Shown here in pieces: positions 29,962 through 46,479 of a stretch of DNA of 64,000 nucleotides. Location of the stretch: the NCBI RefSeq assembly GCF_050624435.1, contig NC_134543.1:124649475-124713474 (forward strand), written 5' to 3'. The DNA comes from Tenrec ecaudatus. Lineage: Eukaryota; Chordata; Mammalia; Afrosoricida; Tenrecidae. The stretch's first letter is position 1; each line of letters begins with the position of its first letter. The notes beneath the pieces are model-generated. The model did no database searches and was not told the origin of the DNA. It saw only the letters and a list, made by a program, of their open reading frames with translations. The position numbers and the translations under genes are program-made.

Positions 29962-30235
29962 GCTCTTTCCCCAACTAGTGTGTCCACTTCTCACCGTGCA
30001 CCTGGAGGATAGACCTGCCCGCTCTTTCCCCAACTAGTGTGCCCACTTCTCACCGTGCACCTGGGGGATAGACCTGCCCGCTCTTTCCCCAACTAGTGTG
30101 CCCACTTCTCACCGTGCACCTGGGGGATAGACCTGCCCGCTCTTTCCCCAACTAGTGTGCCCACTTCTCACCGTGCACCTGGGGTCTACAGTGTGCCCAT
30201 TTCTCACCGTGCGCCTGGGGGATAGACCTGCCCCT
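29962..30235 (+). repeat. 59-bp minisatellite, about 4.6 copies
   Basis: Units start with 'gctctttccccaactagtgt' at 29962, 30021, 30080 and 30139, giving an exact 59-bp period. The fourth unit loses its end and runs into a partial fifth unit (about 30190-30235). Units 2-4 are nearly identical and unit 1 differs at a few sites. The unit has no hairpin and there are no distinct spacers, so it is not a CRISPR. Confidence 0.96.
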
Positions 30236-30349
30236 CAGGTAGGTGCTAATCTGATTCCGTGTGACAGCCATCTCACATGCCCTCCTGGTCCTGTGGGTGA
30301 AATTGATGCTGATGGCAGGACTACGACAGTCAGAGGGACCATGAAGGAG

Positions 30350-30475
30350 CTTGAAATCCACATTCCTATTTTACAGACTGGCGCACTGGTGCTCAGAAGA
30401 TGGCATGTAAGTGGTCAAGACCTCAACCTCCCAACAGCTGATTCTGGGTGTCAATTGCTACTCCACGCTGTCTCG
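30350..30475 (-). mobile_element. MIR SINE, antisense
   Basis: 'cctattttacagactggcgc' and 'gcatgtaagtggtcaagacc' are the antisense MIR landmarks. Confidence 0.65.
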
Positions 30476-31365
30476 TTACCCCCCAAACCAGGGTGAGACA
30501 TCATTTGCACTCAGATTCCTTGTGAGGTCAGGATACTTCCCAAGGGACGCCCAGTCAAGTAACTCTTTGGCCATCCACCCCTTCGGACACATCCCCCAGG
30601 GAGACAGAGACTCTCTGGGAGGCTGAGAGGGCGCCTCCTCTCCAGGCAGGGCCGGCCACACTCTGCTGGGACAGAACCGCCCTTGGGAACATGATCCAGA
30701 AATCACTCCTTTCTCTTATGCAGATGTGTAAACTGTGTTTTACTTCATATTTTAAAATAGAAAATCTATCTTCTCTGTGTTTTAATTTTCTCCCTGAATT
30801 TAAGTCACAAAGACCATGATAAAATGAAATTATTAAAAATAAACTCTCAGCTTTCCAAACATGCACTGCTGTCCCGTCAATCCTACCTACGCTGTTGGAC
30901 AGGGAAGGGCTCCCCAGCGGGTTTCTGAGACTGTAACTCTTGAAGGGAGTAGAAAGCCTTGTTGCTCCCATTTTAAAAGAAAGGATCATTCTATGCTTTC
31001 TTTAAAAACAACAACAACCAAAAAAGCCTTTTTAATCGTGAACTGGGTGGAGATTACAGAGCAGATCAGGTTTCCATTCAACAATTTATATGCATTCTGG
31101 TTCATGTCATGGATTGCAAATCCCCGCAAGGAGACATCACATCGCGCTTCCTCTGTTTTCTATTATACTCCCTATTTCTTTCCTAACCCTTCTGGTTAAA
31201 TGCTGCTCTTTTAACCTCACGTGGCTGATTATTCTGAAGGGTTCATAGCTCCCTGGTGTTCTTGTTCTATTTTTATAGACCTGTGTGTTGTCTGGCTGAA
31301 AACTGAGCCAAGGAGATGAGTTCCTTTCCAGATGTGCATTGTGACCAAGGGGCTTAGCCTGGTCT
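30476..31365. other. No gene recognised
   Basis: At 30901-30960 a short SINE-like body ('ggtttctgagactgtaactc') occurs without head or tail. The minus-strand frame 30989-30555 has no domain. A/T-rich stretch at 30720-30850. Confidence 0.4.
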
Positions 31366-32272
31366 TTTTAAAAATAATTTTGAGTTCCGTTCCACATTTT
31401 TCCTACCACATTATCTAGGACAGCAGTTCTCAATCTGTGGGTGGAGACCCCTTTGGGGGTTGAACGACCCTTTCACGGGGTCGCCCGATTCATAACAGTA
31501 TCAAAATGACAGGAAGTAGCAACGAAAATGGTCGGTGGGGGGTTCACCACCACATGAGGAACTGTATGAAAGGGTCAAAACATTAGGAAGGTTGAGAACC
31601 AATGCTCTGGGACCTTCTAGCGTGATCCCTTTCAGAGCTGTTGGTAATGATAGCCAGGTACCAGCTAGCTCTTCTGGTCTCAGGGTGATCGAGACTGATA
31701 GCCATGTGGTCCATAGTTATCTTGTCCAATTGTTTCCATGTATCTTCAATCTTCTTCATTCATCTTTCCTCCAGTCAGGGAGCAACTAATTGTTGCAGCT
31801 TACGTAGCCACTGATGAGCTTTTAAGGCTCCAGTTGCTACTTGGATGTCGAACATTGTCTTTCTGAACTATGCTATGCCACTTGACCCAGCAGTCCCCTC
31901 AGACTATGGTCCTGAAATACCCAGTCCAACAACTCAATGTCTCAAAGTGCTTGGTTATGCCAGAATCGTTTTCATAGCTTTCCCCCTGTCTGCTCCATCA
32001 CTCAAGGATAGGTGTGTAGCAAAGATAAATACCCATGTACAAATATCTTGTGTCAAACACACACACACGCATCCTCCCTCTCCCTGTCCAGCCTACATGT
32101 CTATTGTTGCATCTCCTCATAGAGCAGCCTTATTACAGGAGTGCACAGATAACAGTCTTTACCTCCATTGCCTCTAACTCATATCCTAGTTTTTATACAT
32201 ATCAGATCCCTGTTCAAAGGAAGTCATTTGCATATTGAGGAAATAAACAAGTGTAGAGTCGCATTTCATTAA
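31366..32272 (-). mobile_element. Older afrotherian L1 3'UTR, antisense, split by SPIN
   Basis: 'ccttctagcgtgatcccttt' to 'tcttctggtctcagggtgat', then 'aattgtttccatgtatcttc' and 'gaacattgtctttctgaact', follow the 3'UTR of an older afrotherian L1 lineage distinct from the abundant tail family. The SPIN element at 31421-31604 interrupts it, so the L1 is older. Confidence 0.65.
31421..31604 (+). mobile_element. SPIN non-autonomous hAT transposon, copy 1
   Basis: The ends 'cagcagttctcaatctgtgg' and 'aaggttgagaaccaatg' are the SPIN terminal inverted repeats. The interior keeps 'gggggttgaacgaccctttc' and 'gaagtagcaacgaaaatgg'. It is 184 bp, with an imperfect 8-bp TSD (atctagga / ctctggga, 6 of 8). 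SPIN is a hAT family known for horizontal transfer into several tetrapod lineages, tenrec among them. There is no transposase; it would have used an autonomous partner. Confidence 0.92.
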
Positions 32273-32274
32273 CA

Positions 32275-32428
32275 CCCCTCACTCACTGCCATTGAGCCCA
32301 TGCTGACTCATCATGACCCCTGTGGGTTTCCAAGACTGTAACTGTTTCTGTGAGCAGAGAGCCCAGTCTTTCTCCCACAGAGCTGCTGGTGGTTCCAAAC
32401 ACATAAGGTCGACACCACTAGGGCACCC
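32275..32428 (-). mobile_element. AfroSINE, antisense
   Basis: 'ctcactgccattgagcccat' (tail), 'gggtttccaagactgtaact', 'agagctgctggtggttccaa', and a shortened head. Confidence 0.85.
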
Positions 32429-32429
32429 C

Positions 32430-32522
32430 AGAAAAGTTTATTTTCTCTGTGCCTCAGTTTCCCAAGGACAAAAGGTATCATGATAGGACCTCGTGCGCTG
32501 GGCTGTTGTGAGGAGTCCATAA
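32430..32522 (+). mobile_element. MIR SINE, sense
   Basis: 'ctctgtgcctcagtttccca' is the conserved MIR core, followed by the 'gggctgttgtgaggagtcca' region. Confidence 0.75.
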
Positions 32523-32527
32523 GATAG

Positions 32528-32722
32528 AGTCAGAACCACCATCACTGAGTTGGATCTAATTCATAGCGGCCCTACAAGACAGAGCACCACGGCCCTGTTG
32601 GGTTTCTAAAGCTGTGGCTCTTTACAGACGCAGACTGACGCATCTTTTTCCCTGTGGAGCAGCCGATGGGCTTGTTTAACAGCTGGACATTCGAGCCACT
32701 GCCCCAGTAAGGCTCCTTCTGG
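32528..32722 (-). mobile_element. AfroSINE, antisense
   Basis: 'gttggatctaattcatagcg' (tail), 'ttgggtttctaaagctgtgg', 'gtggagcagccgatgggctt', and the head 'gccccagtaaggctcctt'. Confidence 0.82.
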
Positions 32723-33400
32723 AAGATAGTGTAAGTAGCAGACACAGCGTGGCGCAAAACCAGGCACTGTGTGTGAGTTATTACTGCTGATATTAACTAG
32801 CTTCTAGTAATTCTCTAGAACTGGCATTGGCAAACTGCTCTTGGCCTGTTTTACTATGACGCATGAGGTAAGAGTGGGTTTCACGTGTTTTTAAGGTTTT
32901 AAAAAAGGAAGAGGGAGAGGGAGCAGGTGCTGAAGCATCAACAGAGACCATATTTATGATGGGCCTTCTGTGGAAAACATATGCTGACCTCTGCTCCAGA
33001 AGTCCCGAATGAGAAATTCATTTCCTGCCTGTCACTTCCTCCAGGTTCCCACAAGTCAGCCGAAGGGCTATATTTCCCCTGAAGAATGAAGAGTCCACTT
33101 GGACTGGGCTCCCCTGGGCGCCCTCCCTGAACCTCCAGGCTTGGGGGTCTTATCCTCCTGGGTCTGGGCCCCTACTTCTATCCCCCAACCAGTCATTGAG
33201 CTGTGTGAGGACTCAGACCATCTGTCACTCTGTGCATCCTCTTCTACTGTATTATCCTGAACATAGCCGATGCTTAGGTAATGTTTGCCAAACTTCTGGC
33301 TCTGCCCACTCCCCTCTCTCTCCTTCACATTCGAAGAAATCTATGTGTATGAAACTGACAGCAGATAGGTCCAAAAGTATATCCCTGGAGTCTCGAAGAC
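32723..33400. other. No gene recognised
   Basis: At 32815-32995, 'actggcattggcaaactgct' and 'gggccttctgtggaaaacat' suggest an old mammalian DNA-transposon fossil, but I cannot name it. An open frame on the minus strand at 33328-33068 has no domain. Confidence 0.35.
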
Positions 33401-33404
33401 AGGA

Positions 33405-34700
33405 GGGGGTACCGAAAAAACCCCAAGAATTTATTTTTATTTTTTTCCTTCAAAGCTAAGGATTTAAATTATTTTACAAACCTTATTACCTTCAATTACT
33501 CTCTGTTACACTTAATACATCTGTCAACTCTGTGATTCCATTCTGGAAAACACTGTTCAAACTCATCTGTTTAGATGGCTGATAGCAGCTCCCTCATTTT
33601 TTTTTCCTCACCTCTTCGATGTCACCAAATCACTGCCCTTTCATGTCCCTTTTCATTCACAGAAACAAAAAGAAGTCCTACCGAGCAAGGTCAGGTAAGT
33701 AAGGTGCGTGGGGCAAGAGAGGCATTTTATTTTTTGCCCAAAACTGGTGAACTGAGCTGGCTGTGTGTGTTAGTCTGGGTACTTTAGAGAAACAAATCCA
33801 CAGAAACTCATGTATAAGAAAGTTTTATGTAAAGGTTAAGTACACATCATGAAAACATCCCAACCCAGTGCTGCCCAAGTCTACAAGTCCAACATACACC
33901 CAGTAACCCAGATGTCTAATACCAATCTACAAAGTCCTCCTCCAACTCACAAAACACACGCAATGATGCCAACTGCAGGAGGAAAGCCAAGTCAGTGAAT
34001 GTGTAAGCATCTCAGCACTGGCAGGGTTCTCCCACGGGTGCTCCAGGGGTAGGTCCATGCGGCTTCTTCTCAGTAATGTCTTGCAGGAAGTGAGCCTTGC
34101 CAACTAAAGCAGGGAACTGGCTAAGGCAGCTGCACCCTGGCCCAACCATCAGAAAGCAAGAGACCTGAGAACTAGAAAGGTGAGGCTCACTGAGTCATTT
34201 ATTCCTCCGCCCTTCAATTAACCCCACATGTGTTTATCAGCCAGTTTGGCAAAATAAGCTAACTACTTCACTGTGCAAGCAGGTGCATTGTTGTAGTGGG
34301 AAAACCAGTCTCCCGTCTGCCATAAATCTGACCTTTTTTTTTTTTTGTCATACACTGTTACGCTATCTTTTCAGAACCTCTAAATAGAAAGCTTGATTAA
34401 CAATCTGACCTGGTGGAATGAACTCCAAGTACACTATGAGTTGACGTTTTCAGCCATTCGGGAAGTTGACAGGTGTCCAGAACAAGGTTTGTCATCAGTT
34501 GACATTTCACCTTTTTTGAAATGAGAAAACCACTTGTACACTTGAGTTTTTCCCATAGTGCTGTTCTTGTAAGTTGTGTTCAACATCACAACAGTTTCTG
34601 CGGCATTTTTCCTCAGCAGGAAACAAAATTTCCCAGCCACAAGCTATTCTCTTAAATCAGCCATCACAAAAAAAAAAAAATGACATTAAAGTGAAACTGC
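33405..34700 (-). pseudogene. Mariner-family transposase, broken, split by a solo LTR
   Basis: Minus strand. The N-terminal helix-turn-helix region is open at 34640-34434 and reads mariner-like segments such as 'KNAAETVVMLNTTYKN', 'TQVYKWFSHFKKGE' and 'DDKPCSGHLSTSR'. After an internal deletion, 34306-34274 reads 'FSHYNNAPA', matching the conserved FHHDNAPAH block with the catalytic Asp changed to Asn. The LTR of copy C is inserted right there. On its other side the C-terminal part resumes (the PHPPYSPDLAP region, decayed) down to about 33440. Tc1/mariner transposases cut and paste DNA at TA sites. This one has stops, frameshifts, a deletion and a lost catalytic residue, so it is dead. The terminal repeats were not resolved and the ends are approximate. 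Confidence 0.8.
33766..34270 (-). mobile_element. Solo LTR, MaLR/ERVL-like, copy C, inside mariner
   Basis: 505 bp, antisense, from 'tgtgttagtctgggtacttt' to 'aagctaactacttca'. A perfect 5-bp TSD 'ctgtg' (33761-33765 and 34271-34275) confirms a clean insertion into the mariner transposase. Confidence 0.92.
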
Positions 34701-35735
34701 TTTTACAAAAAAATTCAGTGTGACCAGAGGGAACCTTCCCGGGAGATGCCAGTGGGTTCAGTAACGCAGCGCAAATCGCTTGGTGCTTGCCTAAGTGGGG
34801 AAAAGGCGTGCTTTTGAAAGCTCTGCCCAGCATAATTTCGGTTTTGGGGGGTAGTCCATCAGTAAAAGTACTTCACTGGTCTCTAACAAAGCTTTTGCCC
34901 AATGCCTACACTTGCCACCCTGAACTGGCTAATCCCTATATCCCAGCTGCCTCTGAGCACCCTCTTTGATCACCAAAAGCCAACCTGGGAGGCAGCCCTG
35001 GAGGTGGTCTTGAGGACAGACAACCAAGGGAACTCTTGGCTCCAGGAAGCAAGAGTATTTGGGTACCTACGGTCCCTGGTTGTCACCGTGGGTGGACAAG
35101 GGATTCAGTGGCCATAGACTGAGGGGCTTTCAACAGGTGGCCACCAAATCCTGAAACCCAGGGAAAGCCTGAGAACAGGTTGTTGACCTTGCATTGCGTT
35201 ACATGACCAAGTAGTATGCCCTCTGCCCCCTGGACACTTCAGACAGGGAGCATTGTTTTTATTTAATGCTCACAAATGTTCAACGGACTATTGATCACCA
35301 ATTCCTGCCAGAGGACTAAGGCTCAGGGGATGCTTTTGGCTCACACTCACATAGGATTGAGGGCAGAGGTAAGATTTGCACCCACTGTCTGACCTGGGCC
35401 CAAGTTCACATACATTCCCCAGTTCTCACTTCCCTAACCTATGGGGCACTTTGCTTAGAGCTGGGACAACTGGAGAAGCAGGGTATCAGCACCCCTTACA
35501 CTGACACATAAGACCAGATGCACAGGAGCCATGCGCTGGCCAGGGAGTTCAGGCCTGTGGACCAGTAGGCCCTGCTGGAGAAGGGCCCAGACAGGAAACC
35601 CAGGGTTGACCGGACCTGGCCTAAAGCCAGTGATAAACTCATTCCGAGGCCAGCTCTGAGGTGTGTTGAAGGAACCTGGCCTGGGGCTGGGGGTTCAGGC
35701 TCAGCTGTCCTGTCAGGTTTTGCCACCACAGACAC
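34701..35735. other. No gene; one MIR-like piece
   Basis: At about 35240-35400, 'ttaatgctcacaaatgttca' and 'gaggtaagatttgcacccac' are an antisense MIR. The remainder, including overlapping minus-strand frames at 35496-35912, shows no motif. Confidence 0.4.
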
Positions 35736-35737
35736 AA

Positions 35738-35902
35738 TGCCACTGAGTTGATCTGACCTGTAGACCAGAGTAAACTGCTCCCTGGGGCTTCTGAGGCCGT
35801 GCGGGAACAGATGAACCACCGCACAGAGTTGCTGAGGGCTCTGAAACACTGACCCTGCAGGTAGCGGCCCATGTGTGAACCACGATGCCGCTGGGGCTCC
35901 TA
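35738..35902 (-). mobile_element. AfroSINE, antisense, diverged
   Basis: 'atgccactgagttgatctga' (tail), 'ctccctggggcttctgaggc', and the head 'ccgctggggctcct'. Confidence 0.68.
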
Positions 35903-36635
35903 ACTCTGTCACCCCAGCATCCCCTCAATCCTCCCCTCCTTGGACTCTGCCCTACTGGCTGGACAAAGGCTCTGACTTTGCAGGGATATAATCTACCAGA
36001 AGATGCTGCTGTTAGCACCGCGCCTGAGGATCACAACAGTTCTGGGAACATGTGGCCTGTATCCCATGACCCTTCCCCGCTATTTGTCAGCCTTGGGATT
36101 CAAAACTACAACCTAAAACACCCCTGCAGACACCAGCTTCACAAGTCGGTATCAGTCGCCGCACCAACTTTCAGGAGTGCAAACCCACGTGCACTGAAAT
36201 GGAAGTGGGCCCCAGAGTGAGTGATTTTGGAAAGCTGACGACTAGGCCTTTCTTCTGAGGCACTTCGGGGCAAACCCAAACCTCTGCCCTGCATGTATTA
36301 GCCAATTACAGCACACATGGACACCCCCACGTCCTGCGGAAATAGTGGCACTTACCATGATTATTGGCGCTCTGAAGTCCCCCAATCGCTCTAGAATGGT
36401 TTTCTTTCTCCTGCTCTCCACCCTTTCCCATCTCTGAGGTCCCCTTCTCGGCACTGTCCAACGCCTGCGAGGCCTGAGGGGAACTTCGCCCACAGATGGG
36501 TAGTTCTGGGAGCTGAGCTGAGCCAGGACGCCCTGCTGACAAGTGAGCGAACACTGGTGGCGTCCTGTGTGGCTTCCCACATGCCTGCTAGGGAAAAAGA
36601 CACAGGAGGCGCAGTAAAAGCAAAAACAAAAGGCA
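35903..36635. other. No gene recognised
   Basis: Open frames on the minus strand (36652-36242, 36750-36391) overlap in different registers and carry no domain. No repeat is recognised. Confidence 0.4.
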
Positions 36636-36639
36636 AGCA

Positions 36640-36762
36640 AACCCACTGCCATGGCGTGAATCCTGATTCATAGTGACCCCCAGGAGAAGCAGCTGGTGGG
36701 CCTGAACCACTGACCTTGAGCTTTGCAGTCCAACACCTACCTGACAGCACTGCCAGGACTTA
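36640..36762 (-). mobile_element. AfroSINE, antisense, shortened
   Basis: 'acccactgccatggcgtgaa' (tail) is followed directly by 'gaagcagctggtgggcctga' (B box). The central body is missing. Confidence 0.75.
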
Positions 36763-36767
36763 TCTCC

Positions 36768-36976
36768 CCAACTCCAAACTCACTGCCATCGAGGCCAGGC
36801 AACTCAGAGCAACCCTATCAGGCCAGCACAGAAGTGCTCCTGCAGGTTTCTGAGACTGTAACGCTTTCCAGGACTAGAAGGCCCTGTCTTTCTCCTGCAG
36901 AGTGGCCGGTGGTTTCGAACAGCTAACCTTGAGGTTAGCAGCTCCATGAATAACCTCTAAGCCACCAGGAGCCCTA
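36768..36976 (-). mobile_element. AfroSINE, antisense, near full length
   Basis: 'aactcactgccatcgaggcc', 'ggtttctgagactgtaacgc', 'ccggtggtttcgaacagcta', and the head 'aagccaccaggagcccta'. It is arrayed head-to-tail with the preceding copy. Confidence 0.88.
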
Positions 36977-37732
36977 GGGCTCATCTTAGCAGGTGTTTAT
37001 TGAGCAATTACTTAAAGCAAGGCCCTCTGGGAGACTTCGCCGATGTCCCACCAAAGCCGAGAAGAAGGATTTAACTTGGAAGGGACACTTCCTGGGCAGA
37101 GCTGTCATGTAGTGACCTCTTAGCTGCAGCCGTTGACCCTAACTCTTTTTGTTCCTCACAACCAGAGTCAGGAGGACACAAGGAAACAAATGGCAGAGGC
37201 CAGAACAAAGAGAGCCCACAGAATTGCAAACCAGTATGAAAACCAGATGCCCTGTTGAGCTGTGGTTTGCCTAGCAATCACATCAGAGTAGCTGAGATCC
37301 CCCCATCCCCCTCCCCCTCCCTGGGTGAGCTCCCTGAGGAATGGTCTGCTGCTTCCTGGGGTCTCCCTGCTCACTCCGAAAATCCCTCAAAGGAAGCCTG
37401 AGAGCAGAAGATCCCTGCCATGTTCTGGGGCCCAGGATCACATTGACAGATGGGTCCATGGGGTCCCAGGGGTGAGCCACCGGCTTCTATGCTCCTGAGA
37501 CAACAGCCTAGAAGACCCTCGGGGGCAGCTCTACGGTCGCGGGGGGCTGCCATGAGTCGGAGGGGTTGATTTTGTACATTGTAGATTGTAATCCTGATGC
37601 AACTCCCAGTTTATCATTTGCTTTTTTATCTTGTTCATGACATTGTCCTATTCTTTCTTCTCTTTAATGTCAAAACATATCTTTGTCTATAACTTCTAGG
37701 TTTATTACCTTGGTTTAAAAGATATTGCTACT
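36977..37732. other. No gene; short L2 and L1-like pieces
   Basis: L2-like 'ggtgtttattgagcaattac' occurs at about 36991. From 37560 an AT-rich stretch ('ttatcatttgctttttt') looks like an old L1. It continues after the hAT element, whose 8-bp TSD begins at 37733. Confidence 0.45.
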
Positions 37733-37855
37733 CTCTAGGTCAGGGGTCCCCAAACTTGTAAACAGGGGCCAGTTCACGGTCCCTCAGACCTGTTGGAGGG
37801 CCAGACCATAGTTTAAAAAAAAACTATGAACAAATTTCTATGCACACTGCACATC

Positions 37856-39236
37856 TTTTTTAGCAGGGGTGGGGGTGGGAGAAAAGTCCACTTATATTGG
37901 TATCTTGGGTATCAAATCTAAGAGTCGGAGGTGTGGGCAGTCAGGCGCCCAGGATCCTCCCTCTGGGCCCGTTCAGCCAAGAGTACGTTGTGCATGGAAA
38001 GCAGGCCGAGAGGTTCCCCTGTGCCACGCACACTAAAGTACAGGCACGGAGCTCCCCGAAGTCAGAGGTTCTGAGAAGAAGATGAAGGGGTGGAGCAGGA
38101 GAGGGTGGGGAACAGGGCTGAGGTGGGCAGGAGGGACTTGAACACTTGAATGTCCAAGAGGGGAGGCTCTTCCTTCAGGAATGCTGACCACATGGGCCAA
38201 CCTGCGATGGGGAGCAGCATACGGAAGGTCGGGCGCCTCCCAGGGGTCTGAAGAGGTCACCTCGACCTTGCAGGAACTCCTGGTGCAGCCAGAGCGAGTC
38301 CAGGTGGAAGCGCGGCTCCCCCAGGCGCTCGGCCGTCCTCTCGTACGAGTCACAGTACAGGCGGCCGCTAGTCTCTGAGACACAGTGTTTGCAGGCCATC
38401 GGGCCAGACGAAGCGGTCGGAGTTTTCCAGCAGTAAGTTCATCACCCAGATGCGAAGGGAGATGCTGGGGGCGAAGTACACCACTGTCAGGAGGGTGGCG
38501 CCTTTGAACTTGTGGAACAGGAGGCTGACCAGCCCCGCCTGGAAGACGATGGTGTTGAAGAACATGAGGCAGAGGATGCTGCTGCTGAAGGGAAGTGCAG
38601 CGCCCTGGAGGGTGACGAGGACCTGCTGGAGGACGGCAGCTGTTCGGAGCTCCGAGAAGGAATTGCCAAAGAGGTCAGAGGTCAGCAGTAGGAACTGCAG
38701 GAGCACCAGGCTGTAGTTACTGGTCTGGAGCATCTTCCTCCTGCCCTCTTGGGCTCCAGGGGCGCATTCCAGAGTTTTCCAGAAAACAGCTCCTGCCTCG
38801 AGCACCCACACAGAAGAGGGGGCCTGCAGTCCGAATCAGGGCTGTTTCGCGCTCTAAGGCATGGATCTCAAAGAGCCATCCTCGGTTGTCATGGGGACGC
38901 CTTCCTGGCTTCCGGAAACCAGATTTCAATGCCGGAAGTGCCTAGAGGACAGCCATTCCACCTCCATCCTGGGCGTTAAAGTCGCTGTCCTGGTCCCCCT
39001 GCTGACCAGAGCCTCCTGTCCCGCTGTGGGGAGCTGCAGGATGGGACAGGCCCGTCACGGCGCCTCTGGTCCCTGGCACCTGGGCTAGGGGTTAGAAATG
39101 CCAAGGAGGAATGCACCTGGGCTAGGGGTTAGAAATGCCAAGGAGGAAAAGGAACAGGCGCCAGGGAAAGGCAACCGGCACCTTGGAGCGCTGCCCTGCG
39201 GCAACACGCGGTTTGGACTTCATTTCCCAGGGGGCC
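37856..39236 (-). pseudogene. TMEM138: TMEM138 processed pseudogene (retrocopy) inside a hAT
   Basis: The parent encodes a four-pass membrane protein of about 162 residues linked to cilium assembly. On the minus strand the copy starts at ATG 38733 and reads '[11 protein letters not shown]', then hydrophobic spans with '[14 protein letters not shown]' and 'LLFHKFKG', then 'VWPDGLQ'. Near 38385 the frame shifts, continues as 'SQRLAA', then shifts again to '[18 protein letters not shown]' and 'QEFLQ' by about 38262. The native stop is out of frame. No introns interrupt it. About 400 bp of 3'UTR follows down to a short T-run at 37856-37861, the remnant of poly(A). About 500 bp of 5'UTR extends to 39236 and begins with 'ctgggaaatgaagtcc', a promoter-proximal motif type, so the copy is close to full length. 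Short flanking repeats ('ctgcacat' / 'ttgcacat') fit a TSD inside the hAT. An upstream in-frame ATG at 38811 is incidental. It is not expected to make a working protein. Confidence 0.9.
39077..39148 (+). repeat. Tandem duplication, 37-bp period, in retrocopy 5'UTR
   Basis: A 35-base block beginning 'cacctgggctaggggttaga' occurs at 39077 and again at 39114. It is identical in both and is followed by different dinucleotides. The duplication lies within the 5'UTR part of the TMEM138 retrocopy. Confidence 0.95.
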
Positions 39237-39364
39237 TTGCACATATATTATTTTGAAGTTAAAAACAAACAAACGGCAGGCTGGATAAATGTCTTTGGTG
39301 GGCCGCATGTGGCCCGCGGGACATAGTTTGAGGACCCCTGCTCTAGGTAATATACAAAGGAGCT

Positions 39365-39535
39365 CTGTTGACACCGCAGATGAATGCATTGGGCTGACCC
39401 ATGAGGCCGGCGGTTCAAACCCACCAGTCACTCCAGGGGAGCGAGATGAGACTTGATGCTCATGTGAAGACTGACAGCCTTGGAAAGCCATGGGCAGTTG
39501 TCCTCTGTTGTCCAGGGTTGCTTTGAGCCAGACTG
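39365..39535 (+). mobile_element. AfroSINE, sense
   Basis: 'ggccggcggttcaaaccc' (B box), 'ctgacagccttggaaagcca', and a diverged tail ('ggttgctttgagcca'). Confidence 0.75.
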
Positions 39536-40050
39536 GTCCAACAGCTATGCATATGCTCTCCTGGACTCTCCTATGGTTTCTTCTCCTATGGTTTTGTGGG
39601 TGTTTTGTTTTGTTTTGTTGAACAGGATCTCCTGTTCTCGGGCCTCCTTTGAAGAATTTTAGGTCTTTCATTGATGGAGAATTTATTCATAACTGCAGTG
39701 TGAAGCAAGGGATTCAGCTACATTTTATTTCAGGACAAATGACCAGCTAGGGCAGCAACATCTTAAGGTGCAGTCATTTCAACTGCAATAAAATGTCACC
39801 CTTCAGTCACATAGACACGGTGACTCTTCTTCGTGTCCTGTGGTTCTAGTCTCATCTTTTCCTGTGCTGTCTTTGATTGCACAGGCTCTGTGGTAGCTTT
39901 TAATATCTTATAAAGCGCTCAAGTCCCTCTTTTTAAACTTTCCAGTGCTACATGGCCAAACCCTTGTTTTTCAGAAAGGATATGAACATTGATAGTCCCC
40001 ATGAAACTGTACTAAAATTTTATTATATTAATTTTCATTACAAGAAGAAA
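39536..40050. other. No gene recognised
   Basis: No recognised family. 39655-39830 ('gagaatttattcataactgc') may be an unlisted old repeat. The open minus frame 39671-39129 runs across the SINE and hAT end and is not a gene. Confidence 0.4.
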
Positions 40051-40055
40051 GAGGT

Positions 40056-40255
40056 CCTGGTGATATCCTGGTTACCCATTAGACTGCTAACCACAAGGTC
40101 ATCAGTTCAAACCCCAGCCACTCTGTGGGAGAAAGACAAGGTTCTTTGCTCCCGTCTAGAGTTACAGTCTTGGAAATCCACAGGGGTAGTTCTGTGCTGT
40201 CTTATACGGGTGCTGCAAGTCAGATTGACTCAATGGCAGTGGGTTTGGTTTTGAG
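40056..40255 (+). mobile_element. AfroSINE, sense, near full length
   Basis: 'gtcctggtgatatcctggtt' (head), 'ggtcatcagttcaaaccc' (B box), 'gttacagtcttggaaatcca', and tail 'attgactcaatggcagtggg'. Confidence 0.9.
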
Positions 40256-40257
40256 TT

Positions 40258-40402
40258 TTGGTGGCATTGGGGAATAAGCATTGAGCTGCTTACTGAAAGG
40301 TCAGCAGTTCAAACCTACCAGTTGCTCCTCAGGAGGAGAAGGAGGCTCTTTATGTGTTGGAATCTCCTCAAAGGCAGTGAGTTTGGCTTTGGTGGATATC
40401 CA
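40258..40402 (+). mobile_element. AfroSINE, sense, internally deleted
   Basis: Directly after the previous copy. The head and B box ('ggtcagcagttcaaacctac') join to the tail ('caaaggcagtgagtttgg'). Confidence 0.82.
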
Positions 40403-40554
40403 AGAATTTAGAATAGTATTCTATGTATTTCATTTTTGTTTCAGATTTTCAATATTAGTATAGAGAAAAACTATGTTTTTAAAAGGTTTATCTCAGTACC
40501 CAGTACTATTTTTTAAGTTAATTTTGTTTACTTTCTTTTTTTTAAAAAAAAGAA

Positions 40555-41290
40555 AGCTCCTAACTGGAAATGCTTGGGGATTTGGGGGTGCCACCATGGC
40601 ATTGGCAGAGGGAGAAATTCATTCTTCCATCTCCAAAATTTCTGTGCCACTTTGATTGATGGCACCCACTGGAGTCTCCAAGCAAGTTGGATAACAATGG
40701 GGTAGTGGACACCCTTGCCTCGGTCCCTGACTTAAACGGCAGTGTTTTTAGCATGTCACGGTAGCACTAGTTCGTGATTTCCTCATATTCTTCAGACTTT
40801 TATTGGGCAAGGTTACTGAATTTTATTGGAATGCCTTGTCAGCCTCTGTTGATCTGATCACATGCTGGTCTCGATTGTTCTGCTGATTAATAAAGAAGGA
40901 AAAGTCTACGTAAAATATTAGCATTGTGTCAAAAAGACAATGCACTTTGCTCCAAAGCCTCTGTCCCGGATGTGAGGGTAGGTCAATACATATATTCACA
41001 GATGAGATCATTTCTTTTCACTTTGGGACTAATTGTATCAGGCATGAACCCATTCACACTTTCTGTCTGTTACCAATGCTCCTTAGGCTTTACCAAGAAG
41101 TCCTCCACTTCTTCTGGGTTTTCAAACGTGTTGCTGTGTTGTTATACCTGCATTTGTCTACGATGGTTTCCATCTCTCCTCTATCCATTGTTAAGCTTCC
41201 TTCTCATCTTCATTTGCATTTCAGTATTTTTTAACCTTAATTGGACCTTTCAAAAATGGAAATTATTTTTTAGCACTGGAAGGTGGCTAT
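40555..41290 (-). mobile_element. L1 ORF2 fragment (reverse-transcriptase region), antisense
   Basis: Antisense L1 ORF2 phrases: 'ggtagtggacacccttgcct', 'attggaatgccttgtcagcc', and 'gaagtcctccacttcttctg' in the same order as in mammalian L1. Stops are frequent. It shows that ORF2-bearing L1s exist in this genome, in contrast to the ORF2-less element at 56.9-61.6 kb. Confidence 0.72.
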
Positions 41291-41671
41291 TTTAAATCTT
41301 AAATGCGCTTTTAATGACCAAAGTCCTGTGGGCCACTCTCCCATCTTGACCCACCTCTCTCATCTTCAGAGGGGACACCACCACTGTTAGAGAAGAAACC
41401 CACTTGGGCTGGGAGTTCCTCCAACACCGTCTCTGGTTCTGGGGCAGAGGGCTGGGCACTGCTGGTCCATCAAGAATGTTGAGAGGAACGGTTGGAAACT
41501 GATTGTGGTAGCAACTGTACAATTCTACTTGACGTGATTGAAATATGGAATGATGTCATATGTATTTAATCCCAACTAACAGGTTCTGGGTTTGTTTGTT
41601 TTTTAAGAATGTTGAGAGGATGGATACAGGAAAAATTTTTTAAAATATTTCCCTAAAAAATGGAAAAGACT
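41291..41671. other. No gene recognised
   Basis: No repeat or domain is visible. A short minus-strand open frame at 41522-41292 has no motif. Confidence 0.4.
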
Positions 41672-41850
41672 AGTTGTTATAAGTCAACTCCAATTCATGG
41701 GTGTCAAAGTTGAACTGTGCCTCATTGGGTTTTCAATAGATGGTTTTCTGTAAATAGATCCCCAAACCTTTCTGCCACAGTACCTCTGGATAGCCTGGAA
41801 ACTTTAACCTTTCAGTTAGCACCTGAGTGCTTTAACCATTTCCACCACCC
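41672..41850 (-). mobile_element. Long-type AfroSINE, antisense, diverged
   Basis: 'gtcaactccaattcatgggt' (tail), 'tgcctcattgggttttcaat', 'cctttcagttagcacctgag' and 'ccaccacccag' (head). Similar to 22140-22346. Confidence 0.65.
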
Positions 41851-42117
41851 AGCTACACCTTATCCCCGACAATGGTTCCAAATGATGAGGGCTAGAATAG
41901 AGATGTTTCCATTTCTCTCTAGTGCTCCCTTTCATCCTCTCTTTCCTGATTACAAAAATAATATTTCTTCATTGAACAAATAAAATATGAATAAGCAAGG
42001 AAAAGAAAACACTTTAAAGCCACCAAGAAATTACAAATCCCTCCCCCTCTCCCCAACATTCTATACGGTGAAGCTACTTTCTCTGACAGCTGGGACTTAG
42101 GGTCAACAGCCAAGCTC

Positions 42118-42245
42118 CATTATTGGCTACTTGCTAACCTCGGACAAGAGTTCTATCTCTTTTTTGCCTCAATTTCCTAGTCTGTAAAACAAAGATAATA
42201 CTGAACTTCCTAGGTTTGCTACGAAGAGTACATGAATCGATCCTA
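42118..42245 (+). mobile_element. MIR SINE, sense
   Basis: 'ttgcctcaatttcctagtct' and 'gtaaaacaaagataatactg' are the MIR core. It ends about 30 bp before the 49-bp block. Confidence 0.82.
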
Positions 42246-42275
42246 TTTTCTATTTGGATAGTAGTCAAGAGAGTG

Positions 42276-42324
42276 CCCCCAAGATCAGCTAGTGCAAACT
42301 GAGCGTGACAGCTCACCATCCTGC
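42276..42324 (-). repeat. 49-bp near-identical block, inverted partner of 1494-1542
   Basis: The reverse complement matches 1494-1542 at 48 of 49 bases. See the first copy for details. Its neighbours here are a MIR on the left and unrecognised DNA on the right. Confidence 0.8.
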
Positions 42325-43469
42325 CATCGGACATAGCAAGGGCTCGCTCAGCAGCTCTGAACTGGCAACATTTTGGTTCTTAGCCCTCTGTTCTTTTCTT
42401 GAAAGCAGATGTCTACATTAGAGACACAGACACACACCTGTCACAAAATGGCATCTGATTGCCAGTCCTTAGTGCACGTTCTTACTCTTCCAGCCCCAGC
42501 ACCTGGAGGCGGGGCTCAGCTTGCGGTCTGCACTCTCTGCTCCACACATAGCAGCCCAGGGCAGTCGGACTGGAGCCCGGCTCCCACTTAGGGGGATGTG
42601 CACCCTCTAAGCTCACCTGGGGGTTATTAAGTAGGCAGAATCAAAGAAAACTAAGTGTATGTTTTTCCTTTAAATGTAACCCATATGTCCTACCAGGTCC
42701 TCCTGGTGCAAGAATGCATCTCAGAATGAAGGAGCAGACATCACTAGTTCCAGTGTCACCGGGTGTAGATCATTCCAATGCACTGCAAAGGTATTGTTTT
42801 AAATGAGACTGAACAGGGGCAGGTGAGATGCTCACTCCATCCTCTCTGACCCCACGACACTTGTGAGGAACCCTACACTACCTCTCTGTGCTGACGTTTA
42901 TAAATAGCACCTTTTCATCTGTTCGACATGTTTCTGCCTGCCCTGCAGAACCTGGGCTCCTTGTTAACGTTCATTGCCTAGGGTCAGACACAAAGAGGAT
43001 ACTTTCAGTGTTCATTGGTCAATGAAATGAATGAATGACCTTCTGCCCAAGCTAGTAGTTAAAAGAGCACGAGCTAAACCGCAGGTCTCATGATCCCAAG
43101 CCAAGTTCACCTACTTTGCTATCCTTTCAAGAGAAATTGTAACTTGTCCTGAGCCCAAATGACTCACCAGGCCACAGCCAGTACTGTCCACTACCCATTC
43201 ATTCATTCATTCAGCAAATAGACACTGAGCGCCTGCTACTTGCCAGTTGTTTCCTCTGTTAGTTACACACAGAACTGGAGTGGCTGACCTTGATTGGAAA
43301 GTCCAAGAGGTCTAAATCATGTTGCCCAAGGAAGGAGACCTGCTTCCCTTATCACTCCTGCTACAGCCGGTCTGATAAGAGAGTCTAGAGGGATAAACAC
43401 TGATCCAAGGACTCTCTGTGCCCTTGTCTTTCTTAAGTCCTGTGTTCCAGACCCTCCGGTTCTTCCTCC
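42325..43469. other. No gene; small L2-like piece
   Basis: (ATTC)n at about 43197-43213 joins an L2-like 'cagcaaatagacactgagcg'. At 42940-43040 a MIR/L2-like antisense string ends in 'aatgaatgaatgacc'. Nothing coding is recognised. Confidence 0.45.
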
Positions 43470-43645
43470 TGTGTACTCACTGCTAGAGTCCCTTACAGCT
43501 CACAGGGACCCTCAAGGACAGAGTAGAACTGCCTCTGTGGGTTTCTGACGTGATATAGTGGGTTATGAGTTGAGAGGCAATGCACAAGGTCAGTAGTTCG
43601 AAACCAGCAGCCACTCTGTGGGGAAAAGATCCTTCTTGCCCCCTT
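43470..43645. mobile_element. Two AfroSINE fragments, tail-to-head
   Basis: 43470-43545 is an antisense tail and body ('aggacagagtagaactgcct'). 43550-43645 is a sense head and B box ('ggtcagtagttcgaaaccag'). Both are truncated, so this looks like an inversion or two separate insertions. Confidence 0.72.
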
Positions 43646-43923
43646 CAGCTCCTCTCACTTCCCAGCTATGGTCCTTCAGCCAAGTTGTTCTGCTTCGGAT
43701 ATCTTGGTTTTCCGTTCCTCTCTGAAAGAAGGGTCAGCATCCCTTTAGAACCTGTTCATCAGGGCACTTCCAGCACGGCCTCTTCTGACGCACTTCAGTT
43801 TCTTAGCATCTTCCTCCTTCAGCTGTGCTTATCCAGTTGTGTCTCCGTCTAGCTCATCTTTATATTTCAGCAGGGTTTAGGAGCCTCATAGTGGATACGG
43901 TTTAATCCTGTTGAGTAAGTAAG

Positions 43924-44480
43924 TGTGTTAGGCAGGGTTCTCTAGAGAAACAAAACCAGAATGCTAATAATTATATCTATATAGATAGATAGATAGATAA
44001 CATAAGAAACAGTTAATTAAATTATAAAGCAGTACAAATGGCTCAGTGCAACTCACTCCCATGAGACAGTTGTAAGACACTGGCAGTCCTTCAAGTCTTG
44101 AGGGCCGTCAGGTAGTCCTCTGTAGAGCAATTCAGGCTATCCAGGCACAGGTAGCAAACAGCAAGGCAGGTCACCAACAGTCAGCCAGATGACAGGGTCT
44201 GACAGTCCCCAGCTCAAGAGATGTAAATTCCAGTAGTGTGGAGAAGCAGGTCTTGAAGGAACCTCAAATTACAGTGACACAGTCCACGGGTTAGGTGTCC
44301 CACAGGTAGTGTAGCTTGCAAACTGAGGCTCAGAACAAGCAAGGCAGCCGCACACTGGTCTGATGATCAAAGAGCAAGAGACAAGAAAGGCGAGGCTTGC
44401 TGAGCCATTTATCTCTCCACCCTTCAATTAATCCCACATGTGTTTATTGGCCAGGTTGGCACAATAAACTAACTACCTCA
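43924..44480 (-). mobile_element. Solo LTR, MaLR/ERVL-like, copy D
   Basis: 557 bp, antisense, from 'tgtgttaggcagggttctct' to 'aaactaactacctca'. A perfect 5-bp TSD 'gtaag' is present (43919-43923 and 44481-44485). An (ATAG)n expansion is at 43978-43999. Confidence 0.92.
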
Positions 44481-44485
44481 GTAAG

Positions 44486-46479
44486 TGTGTAATTGGAAGA
44501 GAAGTATTATTTGGGGAAGTAGGGGCTGGAGAGAGCAGACTTTATTGCTAAGTATAAGACATGAAAATTTGGAGTGGAGAAGAAAAAGGGAGAGAGCCAG
44601 TCAGCAGTGGACTTTTTTTTTTTAATGAGACACAAAATGTTTTCATTTGTACTATAAAGAAAATGTAATTTTGCTGTTAATGCTCTGCATTTTTTCAATA
44701 TTAATTGAAAATTACGTGGGGCCTTACATTTCACATCAAGTTTGTATTCATCAGTCAAAGCTACTAATCAAATCCCTCCCCCGACTCTTCACTAGTTCAC
44801 TCTTCCCCTGTTCCTTGATTTCTCTTCTCCTGCCGGGGACTGTCTTCCATTTCACCCAAGTGGACACCCATCAATGGGCTAGCCGGTTGCTTTAGATTCA
44901 CTCCATGGTCCTCCCCCCATTGACAACCTCTACGGTCTTTTTAAGAAAAAGCGAGCTTAACATTTGAAACCGAGGTTAGTAGAAAGCGTTGTTCCTCTCC
45001 GTCAGTGAAATCCGCTGCACTTCCAGCTACCCGGAGTGGGTGGCGCTGTCTCTGGGCAATCATAAAACGGAGCCGTGTTGTCCATGGGGGTGAAGCCAGA
45101 GAGAACAGGGACAGCCTTTGGCCAAACCCACAGGAAGTTGGGCAAGAAGAGACCCGGTTTTCAGTCCCAGTCCCTGATTCTCTGTGCTGCTAAGCGAGCC
45201 CCTGATTATCTCTGAGTTTCTGTTTTCAGACCTGTCGGACATTGGCCCTTGGACTGCACCCATCTCCTCCGAGCGTTGCTGGGAGGCCTCGGTGTGGACG
45301 GAAAGCAGCTGGGAAGTCCAATCTGAGGCCCTTCGAAGTCTGCATCAATGCTAATATGGGTGCGCGCCTTCTTGAGCCACCTGCGTGGGCTCCTGCCCGG
45401 AATTCCACACGGCCAGTAGGGCTGCTTTGAGTGCACAGGGTGCATGATGGGTGTAGACACACAGGCGACTGGCCTCAACAACTGTTGACAGAACACAAAG
45501 AAGGTCACAAGATGGGACTCTGAAAAACAACATGGAGCTATTTATGAGGCAATAAAACTCCATCACCCCATAAAACTTAATACCCCCCAAAAGTGTCTCC
45601 AGGGAAGGAAGACAGGCTTTTGGGCCAAGATAGTGATAGCTCATGCTGATGACTGGGTCCTGCCGGGATTGGTGCTCAGGACACGCTGCAGGCAACGCTT
45701 GTCTTTACAAGGAGGGCTTGCCTCCTCAAGGGCAGGTTCTGGAGTGGCGGGACGCAAGTTCTAAGGAAGGTGAAGGGAGGCGTGGTTTAGAAGACATGGT
45801 AGCAAGGCGAAGGAGGAAGAGGATCTGTTCGGGAGCAATGCAGACCTAGATCCAAACCCAGCCCCTTCGGTTTCAGCTGCCTTAGAAGACCGCAGGAAGA
45901 ACAAGGTTGGCCTCACAGAGGGACTGAGAGGCTTGCTTAAAAAACAGAACCTGCGCCACGACCTGCACGGTCGTTGCCTTCCGAGATGGAGCTTCTGGGA
46001 CCAGGGATGGCAGGCAGGACCAGGAAACATCGTGTGCGCTTGCGCACCAGGTCATCGCAGTGGGGCTGACGCGGTGCAACTCCAAGCATCCGGGGATTGC
46101 CAGGCCCCAGTCGCGACTCCCTCCCAGAACGCTGGGCCATCACGGTATCACCACCGTGGCTGCGATGGCCACAGGGGCTACCACTGTGATTCTCCTTGCT
46201 GCTTCCCTCTGCGAGATCAGAGATCACAATCCAAAAAAAGCAATCCTTTTCAAGGCCAACGTGAGCTTTCAGGGCTCAAGCTTCCAAACTTCTTTCACCA
46301 CCAGCCTCTCCCAGGCAGATGGTCCCTCCCCCGCCCTGGGTGTACCCCAGGGGGCTGTCCACACCTAGGTCCTCTGTCCTTCAGGCGTTCTCATCTTTGT
46401 GGACATGGTGTTCTGTGAACATCAGTGTGCTCCATCGCACTCAGGTAGACTGCATGCAAACCTGAATGTCCCCTTGGCC
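44486..46479. other. No gene recognised
   Basis: The left part (44550-44760) is AT-rich with 'aatattaattgaaaattacg', possibly a non-coding conserved type. From 45000 GC rises. A 161-codon plus-strand frame (45933-46418) is matched by open minus-strand frames over the same bases and has no domain. A few CpGs occur at 45950-46170. Confidence 0.4.

Follow-up and report, generated by a model that had tools for sequence, protein, structure and literature searches.

In the genome of Tenrec ecaudatus, a single L1-type retro-insertion almost certainly loaded a short hAT element (MITE) with a copy of the TMEM138 mRNA, which repeated transposition of the element then carried to many sites. A cut-and-paste DNA transposon has thus amplified a near-complete copy of a host mRNA in a mammal, as the duplicated target sites of many loci show. 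The copies themselves record how the gene was acquired: its insertion into the transposon bears the hallmarks of L1.

The element in the window

The window, that is, the whole stretch of 64 kb that was analysed, was scanned throughout for 8-bp direct repeats lying directly outside 16-bp inverted ends with at most 3 mismatches and at most 4 kb apart. The sole match was a hAT-type element at 37733-39348, with ends CAGGGGTCCCCAAACT / CAGGGGTCCTCAAACT (1 mismatch) and the 8-bp target-site duplication (TSD) CTCTAGGT on each side. These are exactly the limits, the hAT ends and the perfect 8-bp duplication that an earlier note on this DNA had proposed. First-order Markov resamples of the window (n = 100) gave a mean of 0.02 matches at 3 mismatches or fewer and 0 at 1 or fewer. 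The parts of the element are as follows, with the strand, where there is one, in brackets.

37733..37740: left 8-bp target-site duplication CTCTAGGT, from the direct-repeat scan and the TSD tally
37741..37756 (+): left 16-bp terminal inverted repeat, from the inverted-end scan
37741..37855 (+): left arm of the hAT MITE, from alignment with empty MITEs and sister copies, its end placed by eye
37849-37855: left copy of the inner target duplication TGCACAT, closing the left arm
37857..39237 (-): TMEM138 mRNA copy (tail remnant, 3' UTR, coding remnant, 5' UTR), from the exon-by-exon match to the C41 gene without introns and from the junctions
~37857-37861: tail remnant of the TMEM138 copy, a T run
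38257..38733 (-): TMEM138 coding remnant, frame-broken and open only at 38368-38733, its end placed by eye from the gene stop codon
39076..39148: tandem of a 36-bp unit, two copies with spacing 37, in the 5' UTR part
39238..39340 (+): right arm of the hAT MITE, from alignment with empty MITEs and comparison of right junctions
39238-39244: right copy of the inner target duplication TGCACAT, opening the right arm
39325..39340 (-): right 16-bp terminal inverted repeat, from the inverted-end scan
39341..39348: right 8-bp target-site duplication CTCTAGGT, from the direct-repeat scan and the TSD tally

The cargo is an antisense, intronless TMEM138 copy. Its minus-strand ORF at 38368-38733 matched the Pfam TMEM138 family (PF14935) at 1e-19, and the match went on weakly in another frame at 38175-38399 (E 0.0088, under the Pfam cut-off). 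The open frame that the earlier note had assigned to TMEM138 does belong to it, but the frame of the copy as a whole is broken. In the window's own genome (3.92 Gb, 2140 contigs), the parent TMEM138 gene occupies roughly 12,715,575-12,721,689 of contig C41, with five exons, GT-AG introns and an intact 162-aa frame. The exon blocks of this gene adjoin in the insert, the introns being gone at all exon junctions, as expected of the intronless copy that had been described. The copy had also been called nearly full-length; a local alignment of the insert covers 1299 of the 1534 nt of the spliced parent gene as cut in this analysis. As to the proposed poly(A) remnant, a short T run remains, but the region in which sister copies have the poly(A) signal is mostly gone from the window copy through a small deletion. 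The earlier note had named flanks that are not hAT ends, an insert with introns and a frame other than TMEM138 as findings that would speak against it; the cargo is in fact flanked on either side by an arm of a MITE that is multicopy and has hAT-type ends, and the insert and its frame are as given above.

Several smaller observations concern the same region. The closest sister copy (L004) has a gap of 37 columns where the window has the 36-bp tandem, and the 5' UTR part of the spread cargo keeps ETS-like motifs. A 180-aa minus-strand ORF (39129-39671) runs from outside the element across its right end into the cargo; it has no Pfam match and is probably due to chance. None of ten other window ORFs gave a Pfam match above the cut-off, and Rfam gave 0 matches for positions 30000-46000. 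In IMG/VR, two contigs matched only the 16-bp end, which we took as chance, and the degenerate arm pattern was found in 0 contigs.

Loaded copies across the genome

All 34 candidates of an insert-only search were scored; their 53 matched pieces fall in 30 places, each of which was examined. At 28 of these 30 loci, spread over 11 contigs, the inner junction between MITE and TMEM138 cDNA is the same (the left one at 24 loci, the right one at 23, both at 19). The other two are the parent gene (L027) and one copy without a hAT (L030). The latter, at C119:22334772-22338405, is a TMEM138 retrocopy in its own right, with about 74% identity to the cDNA of the gene. A whole-element search, in which the best 40 of 4211 first-look candidates were scored, likewise returned many loci with hAT ends and TMEM138. 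The counts of both searches are lower bounds. Empty members of this MITE family abound (2775 first-look candidates), and all 40 that were scored match it. At L011 (C65:40661404-40665135), such an empty MITE and a loaded copy are about 690 bp apart. Two further empty MITEs on C130 (L066 and L067, at 70.42 and 76.47 Mb) agree in their TSD and in the flank bases next to it, a likeness that points to a segmental duplication.

Since loaded loci are multicopy, the window element is a member of a family and not a product of chance nesting. A retrocopy that entered a hAT once and never moved again would account for the window alone, where there is no second copy of the arms, but it fails to account for 28 loci with the same inner junction, the tallied ones with different outer duplications. 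The multicopy result rules out this simple nesting, to which we assign practically no probability. The earlier note had spoken of a DNA transposon spreading a mammalian gene copy, should the loaded version prove multicopy, and the 28 loci are such a family.

We tallied the 8-mers outside the ends of 18 loaded loci, in two of which one end was moved by 1-2 bases. The two 8-mers agreed at 8/8 bases in 8 loci, at 7/8 in 7 and at 6/8 in 3; six slid controls, of 18 comparisons each, gave 0-5/8 matching bases. The left 8-mers differ in 17 of the 18 loci. They have A at position 5 in all 18 and T at position 4 in 15, and fit the preference nnnTAnnn, which is that of Buster-type hATs. The sister copies also bear ends similar to the 16-bp inverted repeats of the window. 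The ten loaded loci outside the tally comprise eight with a missing or damaged end, together with L028 and L073. L028 has both ends and a TSD match of 5/8 (6/8 if shifted by one base); L073, which was not scored, has 6/8 by eye. The earlier note had held that more than one locus with different TSDs would support movement of the loaded element, and this is what the tally gives. It had offered two readings, a retrocopy landing in an existing hAT or a loaded hAT moving as one unit; the shared junctions and the distinct TSDs indicate that both happened, in that order.

Could the whole loaded element have been copied by segmental duplication, or by L1 retroposition as a retro-DNA? Such retro-DNAs have been described in primates (PMC11195612), and within two pairs of loaded copies long tracts are nearly identical. 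However, TA-centred 8-bp duplications lie directly at the inverted ends, and there is no flank homology at the edges: within 1 kb or less, the flanks contain scattered shared repeats (E 1e-10 or better), none of which extends to the edge of the element. Moreover, the outer parts of these two pairs have diverged as much as other copies have from each other. We therefore regard copying of this kind as highly improbable, and transposition of the loaded MITE by its own ends as the source of the copies.

Loading, spread and decay

In empty MITEs, the target of the retro-insertion is uninterrupted (...CACACTGCACATATCTTATTTTGAAG...). In loaded copies, the left junction reads CACTGCACATAT (TATCTT in some), followed by a T-rich run and then by the reverse complement of the TMEM138 3' end; at the far junction, ...GGCGGCCT is followed by TGCACATATCTTATTTTGAAG. 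An inner duplication TGCACATAT (up to TGCACATATCTT) is present on both sides of the cargo and is single in empty MITEs. The exact TGCACATAT was seen at the left junction in only 13 of 23 rows, and an exact AATAAA in 10 of 23 (both counted by eye). The duplicated inner target is about 9-12 bp, perhaps up to 17, its exact length being blurred by the T-run. The A-tail comes after a poly(A) signal that is present in sister copies and also in the gene, where AATAAA sits 17 nt before the point at which the tail starts. A duplicated target together with a tail on the expected side constitutes the L1 pattern.

The L1 nick needed here is TTTT/G and not the usual TTTT/A. This, together with the blurring of the inner duplication by the T-run, would favour entry of the TMEM138 copy into the MITE by gap filling or by replication template switching from a cDNA or retrocopy, the kind of route that Tan et al. 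favour for Pack-TIRs (PMC8277862). On the other hand, the A-rich tail begins right after the cleavage site of the gene and its poly(A) signal, the 5' end is near-complete, and an inner duplication of 9-12 bp lies on the expected sides. We consider gap filling or template switching unlikely, and retain target-primed insertion by L1. Independent retro-insertions at the same spot are ruled out because the insertion point, the orientation, the 5' start and the tail are all common to the copies. For the same reason, namely that the junctions are shared among copies, we infer that loading came before movement.

The anatomy shows the first step: L1-type target-primed reverse transcription placed a spliced, polyadenylated TMEM138 mRNA, in antisense orientation, near the centre of a hAT MITE of about 215 bp, and left an A-rich tail and the short inner target duplication. 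The loaded MITE, with both of its ends, then moved as a unit to many sites, as the copies show, making its own 8-bp duplication at each. The tree suggests that this took place mainly in one burst. Transposase would presumably have been supplied in trans by an autonomous relative of the same hAT family. What followed is the decay of the copies, which show no constraint on the TMEM138 frame.

We aligned 22 of the 28 copies, four of them partial, with the gene; six partial or rearranged copies were omitted. In the tree of these 22, inner branches are short (about 0.0125 at most, apart from two pairs), and some groups have middling support. Relative to the majority sequence, the mean non-CpG divergence of the insert is 6.4%; that of the arms, for which few columns were available, is 8.9%. 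The pooled dN/dS of the copies against their majority sequence is 1.10, as opposed to 0.19 for the gene against the majority sequence (8 synonymous and 5 other differences). Every one of the 22 aligned copies has at least two frame-shifting gaps relative to the gene; some of these gaps are common to many, though not all, copies. Thus, the copies decay neutrally and the TMEM138 cargo looks like a passenger. A coding function as a retrogene is ruled out by the frame-shifting gaps in 22/22 copies together with the dN/dS of 1.10. Since the majority sequence itself has three such gaps, part of the spread may have involved a copy whose frame was broken beforehand.

Two pairs of copies on contig C109 depart from this pattern, L003 (the window copy) with L004 and L012 with L013, 1.27 and 6.15 Mb apart, respectively. 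Both have 100% support in the tree. Their inner tracts differ at 18/1200 positions (L003/L004) and 12/720 (L012/L013), and their outer parts by 12-17% and about 10% (inner versus outer, Fisher p = 1.5e-15 and 2.3e-13, with tract limits set after viewing the profile). Among 224 pairs of copies, the lowest 400-column windows, at 0.3% and 1.3%, are those of these two pairs; the next is 6.5% and the median 9.3%. Recent second-round jumps are ruled out because near-identity is limited to the inner tracts and the outer parts have diverged by 10-17%. On these alignments, ectopic gene conversion would explain both pairs better than recent jumps, and an exchange of inner tracts within each pair is well supported as the last step in the history of the family. 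The family also offers a neutral multicopy set for measuring decay and gene conversion between dispersed copies.

Transposase source and known systems

Among the best 150 of 1024 candidates scored, at least 147 matched the hAT dimer domain (PF05699). An autonomous element with the ends of the MITE was not found among 30 sampled of these matches, examined on one side. Eight PF05699 matches that have one profile range (15-80) and one 86-aa open frame in common are spread over about 22 Mb of contig C40 (~16-38 Mb), possibly an amplified hAT-derived segment. Judging from its ends, the MITE may belong to the OC1 (OposCharlie1) family. In the tenrec, OC1 is a hAT with many short non-autonomous copies (6,837 copies, 8.1% mean divergence; PMC3621081). 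With 6.4% for the insert and 8.9% for the arms, the loaded copies have a similar divergence, so that a single wave would fit both if the MITE is indeed OC1. Unlike the loaded MITE, OC1 has no gene cargo in the available part of its description (PMC3621081). hATs have been reported to have entered the tenrec horizontally (PMC5857283).

The nearest known kind of element in animals is the Pack-TIR. In 100 animal genomes, 57 of them mammalian, Tan et al. (2021) recorded 370 Pack-TIRs, most often hATs (208/370), and four multicopy ones, three in frog and one in alligator (PMC8277862). As in these, host sequence lies between the ends of a TIR element, and its multicopy nature is evident from distinct TSDs, as for hAT-N8_XT of the frog (PMC8277862). 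With several loci and a parent gene on C41, the TMEM138 family has the features of a multicopy Pack-TIR or transduplication. In contrast, the cargo in that survey consists mostly of fragments, and an intronless cargo falls outside its strict Pack-TIR definition (PMC8277862). The design of the survey excluded any copy of a multi-exon gene that lacks introns, and a case like that of TMEM138 would have been dropped; the retrogene ARF6 in MER20 appears there as a single capture, with recurrent retroposition as the alternative (PMC8277862). Given this filter against intronless captures, families of this kind may be more frequent in animals than the count suggests. A broader reading, which we put forward tentatively and hold to be doubtful, is that retro-loading is a general two-engine route in mammals, in which L1 writes host mRNAs into abundant MITEs and hAT transposase spreads them, and which was missed because screens discard intronless captures. 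On the same reading, the spread 5' UTR part might have promoter activity at some of its sites, and such cargo could pass between species with a hAT family that is prone to horizontal transfer.

In fungi, hATs have amplified intronless histone H3 to 26 copies in Pyrenophora and hundreds in Pseudocercospora, the latter mostly dead (PMC6710886). They share with the TMEM138 family the hAT ends, the 8-bp TSD and an amplified intronless host gene copy inside. However, the representative fungal element carries a hAT transposase domain, and the L1-type tail and inner duplication of the TMEM138 family have no counterpart in the available description of the fungal elements (PMC6710886). Helitrons of bats are likewise DNA transposons that multiply host gene pieces in a mammal, having spread promoters of 15 genes in 4,690 copies (PMC4778049). 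Unlike the TMEM138 family, they are rolling-circle elements that carry genomic promoter fragments and, as characterized in the available part of that report, have no TIR or TSD (PMC4778049). Searches of the open-access literature gave no report of a transposon carrying TMEM138, nor of any mammalian hAT that is loaded with a retrocopy and multicopy. Transduplication is thus already known as a kind; what is new, as far as these searches reach, is a mammalian hAT family that carries a near-complete mRNA copy written by L1.
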